Shown here: piece by piece, positions 29,806 through 54,210 of the stretch
How the letters are laid out: each line of letters starts with the position of its first letter
Numbering within the stretch: the stretch's first letter is position 1
DNA from: Candidatus Gastranaerophilales bacterium
GTDB lineage: Bacteria; Cyanobacteriota; Vampirovibrionia; Gastranaerophilales; Gastranaerophilaceae
NCBI GenBank assembly: GCA_944322785.1
Contig: CALUPW010000006.1
Span: 1 to 64,000 of the forward strand
Direction of reading: 5' to 3'
DNA: 64,000 nt
The notes under the pieces: generated by a model
What the model saw: only the letters and a program-made list of their open reading frames with translations
The model's database searches: none
What the model was told of the DNA's origin: nothing
Translations under genes and position numbers: made by a program

Positions 29806-30586
29806 TTCCCCGATAGGATTTTTCGACTCCGGCGTCGGAGGCGTAACGGTTTTTGAACAGGTAAAAAAGCTGTTACCGGATGAAAATTATATATATTTTG
29901 GCGACACAAAAAACATGCCTTACGGCGAAAAAACTGAAACTCAGCTTCTGGAGTTTGCGGACAGAATTTTTAAATTTTTAGAAAAACAAAACTCTAAAGC
30001 TGTTATAATGGCTTGTAATACAACATCAGCCGTAGTTTATGAAAAATTAAAGAACAATTACGATTTTGAAATTTATCCGATAATTCAATCTGTTGCAAAA
30101 GAGATTGCAAAACTTCCGCTAAAAAAAATCGGAGTTTTCGCAACCCATGCAACCATAAACACTCACTGCTACAAAACAGAAATTCAACGATACAATCCGG
30201 ATATGGAGGTTTTTGAAATAGCATGTCCCGGGTGGGTGAAAATAGTTGAAAACGGTGAGGAGCAAACGAATGATGCAATAAATGCCGTGATGGAAAAAAT
30301 GGATGAAATGAAAAAATACAATCCGGAAAAAATCATTTTAGGCTGCACACATTATCCGTATCTTTTAGATATTCTCACCCAATTTGCAGAAAGAGAGTCA
30401 TTTATAAATCCCTCAATAGAATTTGCAAAAATTATAAAACAGGATTTAAAGACAAAAGGGCTTTTAAACACCACAGGCGGGAATAGTTTCGAAAAATTCT
30501 ATGTAAGCAAATCTCCGGAGAATTTTAAAAAAGCGGCGTCAATGTTTTATCAAATAAATGAGATGCCTGAGCTTGTGGATTTTTAA
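29789..30586 (+). CDS. murI: glutamate racemase
   Basis: Makes D-glutamate for the peptidoglycan peptide. It has 265 residues with FFDSGVGG near the start, GDTKNMPYG near 39, the catalytic cysteine in MACNTTSA near 73, and the second in LGCTHYP near 184, all expected for MurI. The start is TTG at 29789, inside the last 17 bases of the amidase gene and downstream of AAGGAG, so the two wall genes are coupled. Its 3-prime end overlaps the convergent pseudopilin gene by 48 bases. Confidence 0.95.
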   Translation: MTRLNNSPIGFFDSGVGGVTVFEQVKKLLPDENYIYFGDTKNMPYGEKTETQLLEFADRIFKFLEKQNSKAVIMACNTTSAVVYEKLKNNYDFEIYPIIQSVAKEIAKLPLKKIGVFATHATINTHCYKTEIQRYNPDMEVFEIACPGWVKIVENGEEQTNDAINAVMEKMDEMKKYNPEKIILGCTHYPYLLDILTQFAERESFINPSIEFAKIIKQDLKTKGLLNTTGGNSFEKFYVSKSPENFKKAASMFYQINEMPELVDF

Positions 30587-31303
30587 TAACTGATTTTTTT
30601 TAGGATAATCTTTCGGAATAGTCCAGCCGTTGCTTTGGATTAAAGCAGTACAAAAATATGGTGAAGGAGGATCATCAGCATTTCCGCCATTACGTTTACA
30701 ACCTTCATACAGCGATTCTTGTGTCCCGTCCCATTTGTATTTCCATGGTTCAAATCCTCTATTCAAATGATATTTCCAAATTTCTTGATAATCAGCATTG
30801 GCTACAGGAAGAAAATTAAACGGAAACATACAAACTCCATACCCTCTTATATTATAATTATATTTTTCAATACATTTATCAGCTTTTGACGGATAAAAAA
30901 TCCAGTCACGTGTAGTTTTTTGATTTTTCTGCTGCAGAGCGCTGCCATCCACAAAATATACAATTAAACATCCTCTGTTATCAATACTGTAATGAAGGAC
31001 ATTCATATTTGAACCCAAATACATTTTAAACCACTTTTCCGCTTCACTTGAACCTTCAACAGGCTTTCCGTCACTGTCGATTTGAGCACCTTTCAAATCT
31101 TGATACCAGTATTTTTTATCACCGTATTTTGCTTTTGCCAACAGAACAGCCTGATTTATTGAGGTGTAGAATTTTTTTAGACGGGTTTCAGTTATTTTGT
31201 AATTGTATTTTGTCATTAATATAGGAAAAGTCATAGCAGCAACAATTCCGATTATACCCAGCGTAATCAGAACTTCAGCCAATGTAAAAGCCCGTATTTT
31301 CAT
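30539..31303 (-). CDS. prepilin-type N-terminal domain protein (pseudopilin-like)
   Basis: A 254-residue protein beginning MKIRAFTLAEVLITLGIIG, a class III leader with cleavage expected before F6. The periplasmic domain has DGSALQQKN and ends in NGWTIPKDYP, which matches the end of the 51998 paralogue (DGWTIADDYPW). Here about 20 extra residues (KKNQLLKIHKLR...) follow and overlap the end of murI. An 8-A run lies exactly at the junction; one A fewer would give DYPKKISY and a stop. Divergent from an XRE gene at 31404. Confidence 0.83.
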   Translation of the reverse strand: MKIRAFTLAEVLITLGIIGIVAAMTFPILMTKYNYKITETRLKKFYTSINQAVLLAKAKYGDKKYWYQDLKGAQIDSDGKPVEGSSEAEKWFKMYLGSNMNVLHYSIDNRGCLIVYFVDGSALQQKNQKTTRDWIFYPSKADKCIEKYNYNIRGYGVCMFPFNFLPVANADYQEIWKYHLNRGFEPWKYKWDGTQESLYEGCKRNGGNADDPPSPYFCTALIQSNGWTIPKDYPKKNQLLKIHKLRHLIYLIKH

Positions 31304-33215: not shown

Positions 33216-34103
33216 TTATTTTTTATCATCGTACAAACTTTTTATCATTTCTTTTGTTGTCAGACCGCCTTTTTCCACTGAATATGGTGATCCAATAAGT
33301 ATTATATTGGACTTACCTGTACCACCCGAAAAGAAACTAAATAAATCATATCCCCATTTATTTGGACCCTTGTTCCCGTTTACATCAACGGCAAAAATCA
33401 TTGGAAACGAATATGCTATGATTATAACGCCATCCGATAAAACATAAGCAGTACCCTCATACAACATTGTCTGCTGCTGAAACCCCGGCTGACTATGAAC
33501 TTGTTCCAGAGCCTCTTCTTTACTTAAATCCGGATTCTTTTCCATTGCAATATCTTCAAAACCCTTATACTTTGGAATACAACCTTTAGGATATGCATTG
33601 CCCTTACAAGTTTGGCTTACATTTAAATTTTTAAGCAAAATTTCTCTGAATACAGCGCAATCCTGATTGCTATACCCCTTACCGGTAAGACCGGAAGCCG
33701 AAGATGCATCATTAATAGGATAATAACATTGCGGAGTGAAACCAATATCTACTTCGGATTTTAACAGTGCCTGCGTCAGTGTTGAATACGTCTTTTTAAA
33801 CTGATTTTTTAATATCATTTTTTCAGCTTTGTTTATCAGTGACGGCAGTGTCATGGCGGCTATTATTCCGATTATGCCGAGTGTTATCAAAACTTCTGCC
33901 AATGTAAATGCGGCCTTGCATCGCTTTTGCCGCCAAAAGTGCGAGATTGAATTAATTGGCATTGACAGACTCTGACTTCCGTCAGAGTGACGGAATGGGG
34001 TGCGTGGCATCCGGCGGTCTTCGGCTCTCCGGACTTTGCGGTGAAGGATGTTAGACTCTATACCCGTGATTCCGGCCTCCGAGCCAGAATCTTTTCCTAT
34101 CAT
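33216..34103 (-). CDS. prepilin-like protein behind a repeat-filled, possibly phase-variable 5-prime region
   Basis: The prepilin body starts near 33911 with KAAFTLAEVLITLGIIGIIAAMT, followed by a 220-residue periplasmic domain (QCYYPINDASS, DVNGNKGPNKWGYDLF). No ATG sits directly before the prepilin site. The in-frame ATGs at 34103, 34010 and 33962 have no Shine-Dalgarno, and the sequence between is made of palindromic repeats. The same frame stays open upstream to the 12-G run at 34253-34264, behind which a well-placed start lies (34293) in another frame. The true start is therefore uncertain; this entry uses the first in-frame ATG downstream of the G run. Confidence 0.7.
   Translation of the reverse strand: MIGKDSGSEAGITGIESNILHRKVRRAEDRRMPRTPFRHSDGSQSLSMPINSISHFWRQKRCKAAFTLAEVLITLGIIGIIAAMTLPSLINKAEKMILKNQFKKTYSTLTQALLKSEVDIGFTPQCYYPINDASSASGLTGKGYSNQDCAVFREILLKNLNVSQTCKGNAYPKGCIPKYKGFEDIAMEKNPDLSKEEALEQVHSQPGFQQQTMLYEGTAYVLSDGVIIIAYSFPMIFAVDVNGNKGPNKWGYDLFSFFSGGTGKSNIILIGSPYSVEKGGLTTKEMIKSLYDDKK
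33969..33988. repeat. palindromic repeat in pseudopilin leader
   Basis: ACTCTGAC-TTCC-GTCAGAGT perfect inverted repeat, followed by GACGGAATGG, in the region between the G run and the prepilin body. Confidence 0.75.
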
Positions 34104-34109
34104 AATAGA

Positions 34110-34133
34110 CCCTGAATCAAGTTCAGGGTGACA
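34110..34133. repeat. palindromic interspersed repeat (GAATCAAGTTC type)
   Basis: CCCTGAA-TCAAG-TTCAGGG followed by TGACA. The same design (7-8 base arms, TCAAG spacer, then TGAC) recurs at 52837-52860 and 52951-52974. On the coding strand it reads HPELDSGSI. Confidence 0.8.
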
Positions 34134-34242
34134 CTCTATTTTTTCGTCAAAAGAATTAAGACATGTCTTTTTAAGAGGCTTTGGACTTGAATTGTCCTTG
34201 TCCTCAAAATGACATAAGTCTAAATCGCAGCAGGAGCCTGTT

Positions 34243-34293
34243 TTACGGGTTGCCCCCCCCCCCCTGAAATACAGTCATATCAATAGTTTCCAT
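34243..34293 (-). CDS. 16-codon leader frame METIDMT... with a 12-G run
   Basis: Starts at ATG 34293 with AAGGGG about 8 bases upstream and reads METIDMTVFQGGGGNP, then TAA. The glycines come from the homopolymer at 34253-34264. Twelve G puts the frame into a stop; 11 or 14 G would put it in frame with the prepilin ORF 33216-34103, which is open up to this point. A near-copy lies at 53004-53054. Confidence 0.6.
   Translation of the reverse strand: METIDMTVFQGGGGNP
34253..34264. repeat. homopolymer of 12 C (12 G on the coding strand)
   Basis: Long single-base run inside the leader frame of the pseudopilin; a run of this length is a classic slippage site. An identical 12-base run in the same context is at 53014-53025. 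Confidence 0.9.
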
Positions 34294-34433
34294 ACTTTTA
34301 AGCCCCTTAATTTTTATAATTTCTACTATTTTATTATACTATATTTTTTAATTTATGAAAAGAGAAATCATACTGGAGATTGTTTAAGAAAATTTTTTAT
34401 AATATAATAATTATATTAAATTAGGAGAGAAAA

Positions 34434-35048
34434 ATGGATAAAGAAACTTATATGAGAATTATGGGCTATGTCCCGACTGTAATTGAGGCATCCTCAAGAG
34501 GTGAAAGATCATTTGATATATTTTCAAGATTATTAAGGGAAAGAATTATTTTCCTCGGTTCTGAAATTGATGATGAAGTTGCAAATTCAGTTGTTGCACA
34601 GCTTTTACTTCTGGACAGCGAAAACAACGAAAAAGACATTATGCTTTATATAAACAGCCCGGGCGGTGTAATTACTGCAGGAATGGCGATTTATGACACA
34701 ATGAACCTCATCAAATCCGACGTTTGCACAATCTGTCTGGGTGATGCAGCTTCAATGGGAGCATTTTTACTATGTTCCGGCGCCAAAGGCAAAAGAATGG
34801 CTCTTCCAAATTCCAGAATAATGATTCACCAGCCTCTAGGCGGCGCAAAAGGTCAGGCAACCGATATTGAAATTGAAGCAAAAGAAATTCTAAGAATGAA
34901 GGAAATGTTAATCAGCATAATTGCCGAAAATTCAGGACAGCCTTATGAAAAAGTTAAAGAAGACTGCGAACGTGATCACTTCCTTTCCGCATACGAGGCA
35001 AAAGAATACGGACTGATTGACAAAGTTATTGAAAAAGGCAATTCGTAA
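34434..35048 (+). CDS. clpP: ATP-dependent Clp protease proteolytic subunit
   Basis: Serine protease chamber that degrades proteins unfolded by ClpX or ClpA/C. The 204 residues contain the catalytic triad: Ser in GDAASMGAF near 103, His in MIHQPLG near 128 and Asp in CERDHFLSA near 178. [16 protein letters not shown] and IYEKVKED-like helices match the family. No propeptide beyond a few residues is apparent. A single gene with an AGGAGAG site, ended by a terminator at 35071; clpX is not adjacent. Confidence 0.95.
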
Positions 35049-51997: not shown

Positions 51998-52903
51998 CTA
52001 CCACGGATAATCGTCCGCAATTGTCCAGCCGTCCTGCATTATTTTTGCCGCACAATATGCTCCGGTACCGCTGTGGCTGCAATTGGTATTTATTTCATCA
52101 TTTGTTTGGTCATATCCGTTTGCTCTTACTATATTTTTGTCAAAATCCACTGTAAACATAAAAACATCTTTGCCTATTACATTTGGGGGCTTTACTCCGT
52201 TAATATCCGCATAAACAGTTTGAGCTACACTATATTTATAAATATCTGAAACCTTATTACCATCGTCATCATATACAGGAATCCACCTTACCATTAAGAG
52301 AAAATACGCAGTTCCGTCATTTGTTATAAAAAAGACCCGACCTGCCCGGTAAATTGTATAAATTGCTATGCCCTGATATGTATTATTCCTATACATATAG
52401 CGAGGATATTTTTGATCATTGGAAGGCTCAAAAGGGAATGTACCTTCACTTAAAACCGTTGGAGAATGAAAATATGGTTTCCAGTAACTGTCAAAGAAAT
52501 TTATCATCACGTCCGGATCAATTTCGTCAGAAGTCGGGAAATACGCAGGGCCGTTATCTTCTTGAGCTTTGATTACAAGTTGACTTAATACTGTATAAAC
52601 CTTTTTAAGTTTATTAACTGTTACATGTTTTTGATAATTCCCGATTAAGGAAGGCAGTGTCATAGCAGCAACTATACCGATTATGCCGAGTGTCATCAAA
52701 ACTTCTGCAAGCGTAAAGCCAGCTTTGCTTATTATCTTAGCACTTCTACTCAAATGGCAGTGTTTGTTCAAATTTTTATACGTCATTGCGACTCTCGAAC
52801 AGGAATCTTTCAGGATTGTTTTTATCAAAATGATAGATTCTGAGTCAAGCTCAGAATGACGTGATTTAAAACCTGCCTGAGAGGAAGATTCGACACTTAT
52901 CAC
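51998..52903 (-). CDS. prepilin-like protein behind a repeat-filled, possibly phase-variable 5-prime region
   Basis: The prepilin body starts near 52723 with KAGFTLAEVLMTLGIIGIVAAMTLPSLIGNYQ and a 235-residue periplasmic part (PAYFPTSDEIDPDVMINFF, ending DGWTIADDYPW). The frame shown begins at GTG 52903, which has no ribosome binding site. It is open much further upstream, to the 12-G run at 53014-53025. The leader carries RHSELDSESI, the translation of a palindromic repeat. A start with a perfect Shine-Dalgarno lies at 53054 in another frame. It follows folP closely, so it would be the second gene of that transcript. Confidence 0.7.
   Translation of the reverse strand: MISVESSSQAGFKSRHSELDSESIILIKTILKDSCSRVAMTYKNLNKHCHLSRSAKIISKAGFTLAEVLMTLGIIGIVAAMTLPSLIGNYQKHVTVNKLKKVYTVLSQLVIKAQEDNGPAYFPTSDEIDPDVMINFFDSYWKPYFHSPTVLSEGTFPFEPSNDQKYPRYMYRNNTYQGIAIYTIYRAGRVFFITNDGTAYFLLMVRWIPVYDDDGNKVSDIYKYSVAQTVYADINGVKPPNVIGKDVFMFTVDFDKNIVRANGYDQTNDEINTNCSHSGTGAYCAAKIMQDGWTIADDYPW
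52837..52860. repeat. palindromic interspersed repeat
   Basis: ATTCTGAG-TCAAG-CTCAGAAT followed by GACG; the same design as at 34110 and 52951. On the coding strand of the pseudopilin it reads RHSELDSES. Confidence 0.85.
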
Positions 52904-52907
52904 GTCA

Positions 52908-52927
52908 CTCCGGCCTCCGAGCCGGAG
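52908..52927. repeat. palindromic repeat in pseudopilin leader
   Basis: CTCCGGC-CTCCGA-GCCGGAG, 7-base perfect arms. A degraded relative (GATTCCGGCCTCCGAGCCAGAATC) lies near 34068-34091 in the other pseudopilin leader. Confidence 0.75.
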
Positions 52928-52950
52928 GCTGTTTCTATCAGCACTGATAG

Positions 52951-52974
52951 ATTCCGGATCAAGTCCGGAATGAC
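52951..52974. repeat. palindromic interspersed repeat
   Basis: ATTCCGGA-TCAAG-TCCGGAAT followed by GACA; the same family as 34110 and 52837. Confidence 0.88.
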
Positions 52975-53003
52975 ATAAGGTTAAATCTCTGTCAGGAGCT
53001 GCT

Positions 53004-53054
53004 TTACGGGTTGCCCCCCCCCCCCTGTAATCCAGTCATATCAATAGTTTCCAT
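53004..53054 (-). CDS. 16-codon leader frame METIDMT... with a 12-G run, second copy
   Basis: Starts at ATG 53054, preceded by AAAGGAGCTTAATGT (perfect Shine-Dalgarno that touches the folP stop), and reads METIDMTGLQGGGGNP, then TAA. Only three residues differ from the copy at 34243-34293. With 11 or 14 G it would join the prepilin frame, open from here to 51998. Confidence 0.62.
   Translation of the reverse strand: METIDMTGLQGGGGNP
53014..53025. repeat. homopolymer of 12 C (12 G on the coding strand)
   Basis: The same length and flanks as 34253-34264 (CA before and CAACCCGTAA after the G run on the coding strand). Confidence 0.9.
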
Positions 53055-53067
53055 ACATTAAGCTCCT

Positions 53068-54210
53068 TTAATATTTTTCCATTACCTCAAGCAGCCTTTT
53101 ATGCAAAGGCACATTATGCACTCTAATATAATCCACTTTCTTTTCAATTGCAAGTGTGTTCAATGCAACAGTAAAAATATCCTTTATATCGTTGTCATAA
53201 TCACCGAGATTTAATAGTGATTTGCGGGAAAGCCCCAGCATAACTTCGCAACCCAGTCCGTAAAACTCCTCAATTCGTTTTATTATTTCAAAATTATCTT
53301 CCCGTGTTTTGCCGAATCCTATTCCGGGGTCTACAATAATATTCTCTTTTTTTATGCCTTTTAAGAGGGCAAAATCAATTTTTTCTTTCAATTTCAGATA
53401 AATTTCGTCAATCAAACTTTCATATTTAGGGTTGTCCTGCATATTTTGCGGGGTGCCTTTTGAATGCTGAAGAATGATTTTTACATCTTTTCCGGCAATC
53501 ACATCCGACATATTTTTATCATATTCAAATCCTGAAACGTCATTAATAATTGCGGCGCCGTTTTCAATACAAACCTTTGCAACTTCTGATGATCTTGTAT
53601 CAATACTTATCGGAATACAAAACCCGTTTTCTTTTGCAAAATCTAATAATGGCAAAATCCTGTCAATCTGAGCACCTGCTGAAACCGGTGTAGAATAAGG
53701 TTTTGTTGATTCGGCACCTATATCAATTATATCGGCTCCGGAATTTACCATATATTCAAAATGTTCTTTGGCTTTATCATAGTCCAAGAATTCGCCGCCG
53801 TCAGAAAAGGAATCCGGTGTAAGATTTAAAATTCCGACAATTTTTGGCTTTGTAAACGGCTTTTCTTTTAAAAATTTTTCAATTTCACCTGCCAGCATTT
53901 TTAATCCGAAAGGCTGTTTTTCAAGCTTCCTGGCAATCGTTAAGAGTTCCGAAAAACTTCCGCCCAGAATGCAATCCGTTTTTTCTGTTTTAGCGGTTAT
54001 TGTTTCCCTGTGGGTTGCACAGTCAGCACCGCAGGAAAGAGCGGTCTGTTTTAATATATTTGCCTGAGCTGCTGAAAGGTCATAGATTTTTATGTTTTTA
54101 TATCTGAATTTATTTGATGCGACGGATTTATAGGATTTGTCGAACCCTATTTTTTCAAGCTCTTTTTCTACATCGTTTGTTACAATTTCTTTTAAGATGA
54201 AATCTTTCAT
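53068..54210 (-). CDS. folP: dihydropteroate synthase, N-terminally extended
   Basis: Joins p-aminobenzoate to hydroxymethyl-dihydropterin diphosphate in folate synthesis. Residues about 122-380 are the pterin-binding TIM barrel: VGILNLTPDSFSDGG near 126, DIIDIGAESTKPYSTPVSA near 156, ISIDTRSSEVAKV near 200, INDVSGF near 220 and the VDPGIGFGKTREDN near 292. The first 120 residues are an extra domain (ILKQTALSCGADCATHR, LGGSFSELLTIARKLEKQPFGLKMLAGEI), known in clostridial-type DHPS of about 390-400 residues. The pseudopilin cassette starts 13 bases after its stop. Confidence 0.93.
   Translation of the reverse strand: MKDFILKEIVTNDVEKELEKIGFDKSYKSVASNKFRYKNIKIYDLSAAQANILKQTALSCGADCATHRETITAKTEKTDCILGGSFSELLTIARKLEKQPFGLKMLAGEIEKFLKEKPFTKPKIVGILNLTPDSFSDGGEFLDYDKAKEHFEYMVNSGADIIDIGAESTKPYSTPVSAGAQIDRILPLLDFAKENGFCIPISIDTRSSEVAKVCIENGAAIINDVSGFEYDKNMSDVIAGKDVKIILQHSKGTPQNMQDNPKYESLIDEIYLKLKEKIDFALLKGIKKENIIVDPGIGFGKTREDNFEIIKRIEEFYGLGCEVMLGLSRKSLLNLGDYDNDIKDIFTVALNTLAIEKKVDYIRVHNVPLHKRLLEVMEKY

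Follow-up and report, generated by a model that had tools for sequence, protein, structure and literature searches.

A poly-G leader cassette before prepilin-like genes suggests a bank of switchable pilins in Candidatus Gastranaerophilales

The genome studied here (1.95 Mb in 18 contigs) carries about 36 sites, counted as the union of leader, tract-flank and leader-tract searches, at which a short leader and a homopolymeric G-run precede genes of a type-IV-pilin-like family, and together these cassettes look like a genome-wide on/off switch bank for surface filaments. Comparison between copies gives good support for a switch at the G-run, since ON alleles with exactly the predicted ORF occur in paralogues and in sister species. 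Phase variation of pilin expression by replication slippage, with a strong OFF bias, is the reading that we consider probable on the grounds of sequence comparison. The true start of such a gene would be the short leader ORF, which in the locus analysed most closely begins at ATG 34293. With 12 G the ribosome would make a leader peptide of 16 residues and terminate, whereas a loss of one G (or a gain of two) during replication would fuse the leader via a spacer to the prepilin, so that the pilin would be made, its pre-sequence presumably being cut off by prepilin peptidase. The switching event would be replication slippage at the tract, the OFF bias would arise through selection, and the roles of the products as pilins are putative. 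If the loci, about 36 in number, each switch independently and most of them are OFF in most cells, a population would show differing sets of minor pilins.

The locus and its copies within the genome

The window, i.e. the whole stretch of 64,000 nucleotides that was analysed (C6:1-64000), contains the locus on its minus strand (33216-34338), with clpP (34434-35048, a Clp protease by Pfam) on one side and a small unknown ORF on the other. Read in the direction of the gene, a promoter-like TATAAT box (34333-34338), found by direct reading 45 nt 5' of the leader ATG, is followed by the Shine-Dalgarno site AAGGGG (34303-34308; AAGGAGC in most other copies) and by a type-1 leader, which starts at ATG 34293 and comprises METIDMTVF together with the CA of the codon that crosses the run (34265-34293). 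The homopolymer of 12 G comes next (34253-34264), in an OFF phase that would turn ON at 11 or 14 G, with, closely 3' of it, the TAA at which the leader ORF ends when 12 G are read (34243-34245) and the motif GCTCCT (34232-34237), which is complementary to AGGAGC and conserved at the nucleotide level. An in-frame spacer of 114 codons (33912-34252), made up mostly of palindromic repeats and without a stop in the pilin frame, then leads to the prepilin or pseudopilin body (AFTLAEVLITLGIIG...), which extends to its stop (33216-33911).

An earlier note on this DNA, made from its letters alone, had described the ATG, the AAGGGG site and the 12-G run and had stated that the leader ends after 16 codons; direct reading bears this out, the translation at 12 G being METIDMTVFQGGGGNP, followed by the TAA at 34245-34243. 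The note had also predicted that 11 or 14 G would lead into the prepilin behind a leader of about 128 residues, which is correct because the joined frame is open for 344 codons 3' of the run and reaches the prepilin motif (FTLAEVLITLGIIG) after 114 of them. Such a pre-sequence is unusually long for a prepilin. The locus has the layout of a homopolymeric contingency locus, namely a run of at least 8 bases in the 5' part of an ORF whose downstream frame is open at another tract length. In addition, a Pfam profile search placed N_methyl (PF07963) above cut-off (E 1.9e-5) in ORF 33216-34103, the longest listed, which begins at an internal ATG, and by this profile the body has the N-terminal methylation motif and hydrophobic segment of a prepilin.

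G-runs of at least 8 bases occur at only two places in the window (34253-34264 and 53014-53025), both in loci of the same type, and the G-run search gave 10 matches as against 0.28 in shuffled sequence. The second cassette (51998-53054, minus strand) has the leader METIDMTGLQ from ATG 53054, 12 G at 53014-53025 and thus the OFF phase, a spacer of 98 codons and a prepilin body. It sits directly behind an ORF (53068-54210) that appears dihydropteroate-synthase-like by eye. A few genes away from the first locus, an ordinary prepilin (30539-31303; MKIRAFTLAEV..., DUF6613) has a normal start and no G-run.

Throughout the genome the cassette has the order promoter-like box, Shine-Dalgarno site, short leader, G-run, stop, GCTCCT, spacer and prepilin. 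Searches with the leader peptide and with the tract and its flank returned 44 matches (many of the sites twice) and 33, respectively, in a genome with at least 69 prepilin-like matches. In most copies the upstream DNA is unrelated and similarity sets in at the Shine-Dalgarno site, extending over about 90 bp. Two leader types occur, METIDMTxFQ and M(V)KKQTMIEIQ (e.g. MVKKQTMIEIQ), and the run is followed by CAACCCGTAAAAC, GCTCCT and then a repeat-rich spacer of 43-258 codons. The palindromic repeat family CGTCATTCYGRACTTGAYYCRGAATCT comprises 72 dispersed copies genome-wide (for instance at C7:88456 and C10:33927), many of which are read in frame inside pilin pre-sequences.

The earlier note considered so long an open frame unlikely by chance, and this view was strengthened by a tract search that took sites without any condition on an open frame: at 25 of the 32 own-genome sites scored, the matching frame is open as far as the prepilin motif. 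The seven exceptions (L012, L014, L023, L024, L027, L033 and L037), in which the spacer contains stops or the pilin is absent from that frame, appear degraded or shifted. Counts of zero stops in the extracted modules depend on the rule of extraction and were left out of the argument, which uses this unconditioned figure. The note's reservation that the palindromic repeats are themselves open in the pilin frame is right as an observation, but in sister species, where spacers can be as short as 12-17 codons, the frame is equally open.

Distribution in relatives

Leader and tract recur together in 12 of the 14 genomes of the genus, and those cassette-bearing contigs that have a title belong to Candidatus Gastranaerophilales. 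Cassettes with unrelated leaders are present in at least four further genera of the family. In one of them (g22, represented by G034) an analogous but different cassette precedes nearly every prepilin examined, consisting of a MKxLxRxxH-like leader, G10, an early stop and the pilin 9-92 codons further on; genera g2, g4 and g10 (G014, G016 and G022) have cassettes with yet other unrelated leaders. Normal pilin starts were found in the sampled pilins of other genera, i.e. G028 and most of G032. Furthermore, the family has many poly-G runs of at least 10, whereas most genomes of the order's other families have few.

Two further sets of tracts were seen in these relatives. In G026, loci L118-L129 have G10 followed directly by TAAACCGCTCA, before prepilins with their own later starts, and these cassettes are possibly degraded or differently used. 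Tracts of G13-G15 in the context ACCCTTGTCCTGAGCGGCTTT... occur at L092 and L093 (CALUVG) and at L132-L135 (G029), several of them near contig ends, and possibly represent another poly-G repeat family. An exact-pattern scan also hit contigs of unrelated phyla (WOR-3, Bacteroidetes and others); the hits inspected had runs of 7-8 G and were due to chance, and the one match in viral contigs was irrelevant.

Tract phase, selection and the level of switching

A census of 138 distinct modules from 13 genomes, 102 in the genus and 36 in G034, revealed a strongly skewed distribution of phases. Of the 102 genus modules, 77 exceed the pilin frame by one base (phase 1), 18 are in frame and 7 take the remaining phase; of the 36 in G034, 32 fall short by one base (phase 2), 3 are in frame and 1 is other. 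Expressed as ON and OFF this amounts to 18/84 in the genus and 3/33 in G034, about 15 % being ON across paralogues and species. ON and OFF alleles coexist, as they do at contingency loci, and the predicted continuous fusion ORF is present in ON alleles such as L026, L038, L050, L056 and others.

The earlier note had proposed a search for alleles of 11 or 14 G and a comparison of tract lengths between related genomes. ON alleles, with 11 G or its equivalents, were indeed found in paralogues and sister species, and lengths differ in near-identical DNA (13 vs 12 and 11 vs 12). For instance, the tract counts 13 G in L009 of the present genome but 12 G in the orthologous L046 of another species (G006), the 60 nt before the tract being identical and the 200 nt after it 99 % identical. 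A pair in G001 consists of L252 with 11 G (ON), which lies near a contig end, and L146 with 12 G (OFF), identical over 60 nt upstream and 95 % identical downstream, and a tandem pair in L172 of G034 has 10 vs 12 G. Near-identical pairs that differ by 1-2 G number these three only, and none are isolates of one strain.

Substitutions beside the tract are matched by changes in run length, and the phase is kept. Among copies with leader phase 2, 60 have 12 G and one has 13, and among those with leader phase 1, seven have 12 and 13 have 13 (Fisher p = 2.6e-9, which is not exact since the copies are related). Run length compensates for leader phase, and it is therefore the phase that is conserved rather than the length of the tract; this compensation rules out mutational equilibrium alone as the source of run length. 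Conservation of phase can result from selection against ON at most loci in most cells, with rare slips switching the gene, or from the need for a fixed out-of-frame phase. A few copies (L032 and L149) are in the OFF phase with an interrupted run and their pilin frames still open, which, like the compensation, speaks against a freely slipping tract.

Pilin bodies are under purifying selection despite the mostly OFF state of the copies. For 42 pairs with dS of 0.1-1.5, mostly in the OFF phase, dN/dS was about 0.1-0.3 with a median of 0.18, from which we infer that the genes are expressed often enough for selection to act.

Slipped-strand switching, with the locus currently OFF, had been the inference of the earlier note, and of this the switch at the G-run stands by comparison between copies, while slippage in DNA would be the most economical mechanism. 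A point counter to free slippage is that one OFF phase dominates where a spread of lengths and both OFF phases would be expected, and the conservation of GCTCCT is left unexplained by a plain slippage switch. Tracts that slip freely do not usually show a phase so nearly fixed from locus to locus and across species and genera, so that slippage in RNA is also conceivable. In such a programmed mechanism, the main rival, possible although unlikely in our estimation, the tract would be kept one base off and a low, set output of pilin would be obtained by transcriptional slippage or ribosomal frameshifting, with the stop and GCTCCT/Shine-Dalgarno pairing as possible modulators. It would accord with the strong preference for a single out-of-frame phase that persists when the run length changes, with purifying selection on OFF-phase copies, and with a stop that ends 7-16 nt past the run in 75 of the 75 phase-1 genus modules examined. 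It is opposed, however, by in-frame alleles, which are common, by tract lengths that vary in near-identical DNA, and by the direction of the shift, which would have to be +1 (or -2) in the genus and -1 (or +2) in G034. The site is thus conserved but the direction differs by genus, and a uniform directional ribosomal frameshift is ruled out as a general rule.

The GCTCCT motif bears on both sides of this question. The motif or a close variant lies within about 33 nt 3' of the run, typically at about 20-30 nt, in about 90 % of the genus modules, and CTCC occurs in 91 % of them within 33 nt as opposed to 0 % in the next such interval. Relative to the pilin it is found in all three reading frames (32/30/24), so that conservation concerns the nucleotides and not the encoded residues. 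Its sequence is the complement of AGGAGC in the Shine-Dalgarno site of the same cassette, and predicted folds pair the two in 72 of 99 genus modules, compared with 29 of 99 when the downstream block is shuffled, which would fit RNA-level slippage. Covariation within the genus, however, was not significant (the 13 deviating modules fitted their own Shine-Dalgarno site no better than those of other modules, mean rank 0.51), and predicted folds in G034 showed no enrichment of the pairing (11 vs 14 shuffled). On these two results the stem between Shine-Dalgarno and anti-Shine-Dalgarno is not supported as a proven RNA structure. A more far-reaching version, in which dozens of pilin genes per genome across the family are selected to be one base off and expressed by RNA slippage on poly-G, while the stop and GCTCCT/anti-Shine-Dalgarno block initiation on termination and release it on read-through, seems doubtful to us.

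A gene of another kind also argues for a switch in DNA. At C3:164833-164855 (L069), an Acyl_transf_3 gene is divided by the same tract and flank (G12CAACCCGTAAAACAGCTCCT), its profile matching positions 4-59 before the tract and 76-299 after it. The downstream part lies in another frame than the pilins (QPVKQLLEW) and would be joined at 13 or 10 G. Tract and flank can therefore serve a gene unrelated to the pilins, of surface-modification type, and this is easier to reconcile with a switch in DNA than with a recoding signal specific to pilins.

We consider it improbable that the cassette is a 5' end in decay or silent, with leader and tract left over as relics and the pilins started within the spacer, e.g. 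at ATG 34103. G026, where the tract module lies far upstream, the frame is broken and the prepilins have their own nearby starts, would suit this explanation, as would the 7 of 32 own-genome copies with spacer stops or no pilin in frame. In many short-spacer copies, however, the run is not followed by any ATG, GTG or TTG; such a codon is missing from the pilin frame 3' of it in 55 of 99 genus modules and 29 of 36 in G034, and an independent pilin start is therefore impossible in those copies. This excludes both an independent start and reinitiation past the leader stop for many copies. Furthermore, the frame from tract to pilin is unbroken through spacers of 9-258 codons, and strong Shine-Dalgarno sites and promoter-like boxes precede the leader, with exact TATAAT 25-70 nt 5' of the leader ATG in 47 of 98 genus and 18 of 36 G034 modules (control stretches within pilin bodies: 3/96 and 0/36). 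Finally, an artefact, whereby the run is miscounted and the genes are truly in frame, is very improbable: the assemblies that supply the tracts are indeed drafts and Illumina sequencing has difficulty with G-tracts (such artefacts are reported in PMC9187656), but the phase is consistent over 138 modules and 13 genomes, 13-G runs with an adjacent A-to-G change hold the phase, unlike a counting error, and interrupted runs are readable, with both phases seen.

Comparison with known systems and implications

Several known systems share features with the cassette. In the sortase pili of Bifidobacterium breve (bbr_0113, bbr_1889; Penno et al. 2022, PMC9187656), a G11/G12 tract divides the first pilin gene so that two ORFs result, and mixed tract lengths have been measured in the population, replication slippage deciding expression of the pilus (PMC9187656). 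Like in that gut commensal, here a pilin gene is cut by a G-tract with the start before it. But whereas B. breve has sortase pili at two loci with measured slippage, the present pilins are of the type IV class, at about 36 loci with one cassette, and are known from sequence alone. Phase variation by slippage in the G-run, the account best supported here, comes close to the B. breve G-tract, with differences in the number of loci that have one cassette, the conserved OFF phase, a pre-sequence of up to 258 codons derived from repeats, and GCTCCT.

Rickettsia palindromic elements (RPE) are inserted in frame in proteins. The dispersed palindromic repeats described here, likewise read through in frame, can be likened to them in style, and unlike them lie in prepilin pre-sequences. 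Neisseria, too, has poly-G/C contingency loci, dozens per genome, and those of Campylobacter (reviewed in PMC8355987) switch surface genes by slipped-strand mispairing. Intragenic G/C tracts at dozens of sites per genome are common to both and to the present genome, but the latter differs in that a single cassette recurs before one gene family, species share the preferred OFF phase, and GCTCCT lies behind the tract irrespective of frame. Genes with programmed frameshifting or transcriptional slippage (PMC5009743, PMC3711429) similarly have a conserved frame transition at a homopolymer and a stop close behind, whereas in our case the direction of the shift varies by genus, true in-frame alleles exist and the product is only putative.

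Within the literature collection searched, no paper was found on phase variation in this order, and further searches gave no report of poly-G switching in Gastranaerophilales. If the proposed switch is true, uncultured gut Gastranaerophilales, a non-photosynthetic cyanobacterial line, would hold about 36 individually switchable pilins in 1.95 Mb, which would be, as far as is generally known, a large contingency set for a single gene family. This would also account for gene callers missing or mis-starting such pilin genes, and it would provide many parallel copies for asking whether poly-G switches in DNA or slips in RNA.
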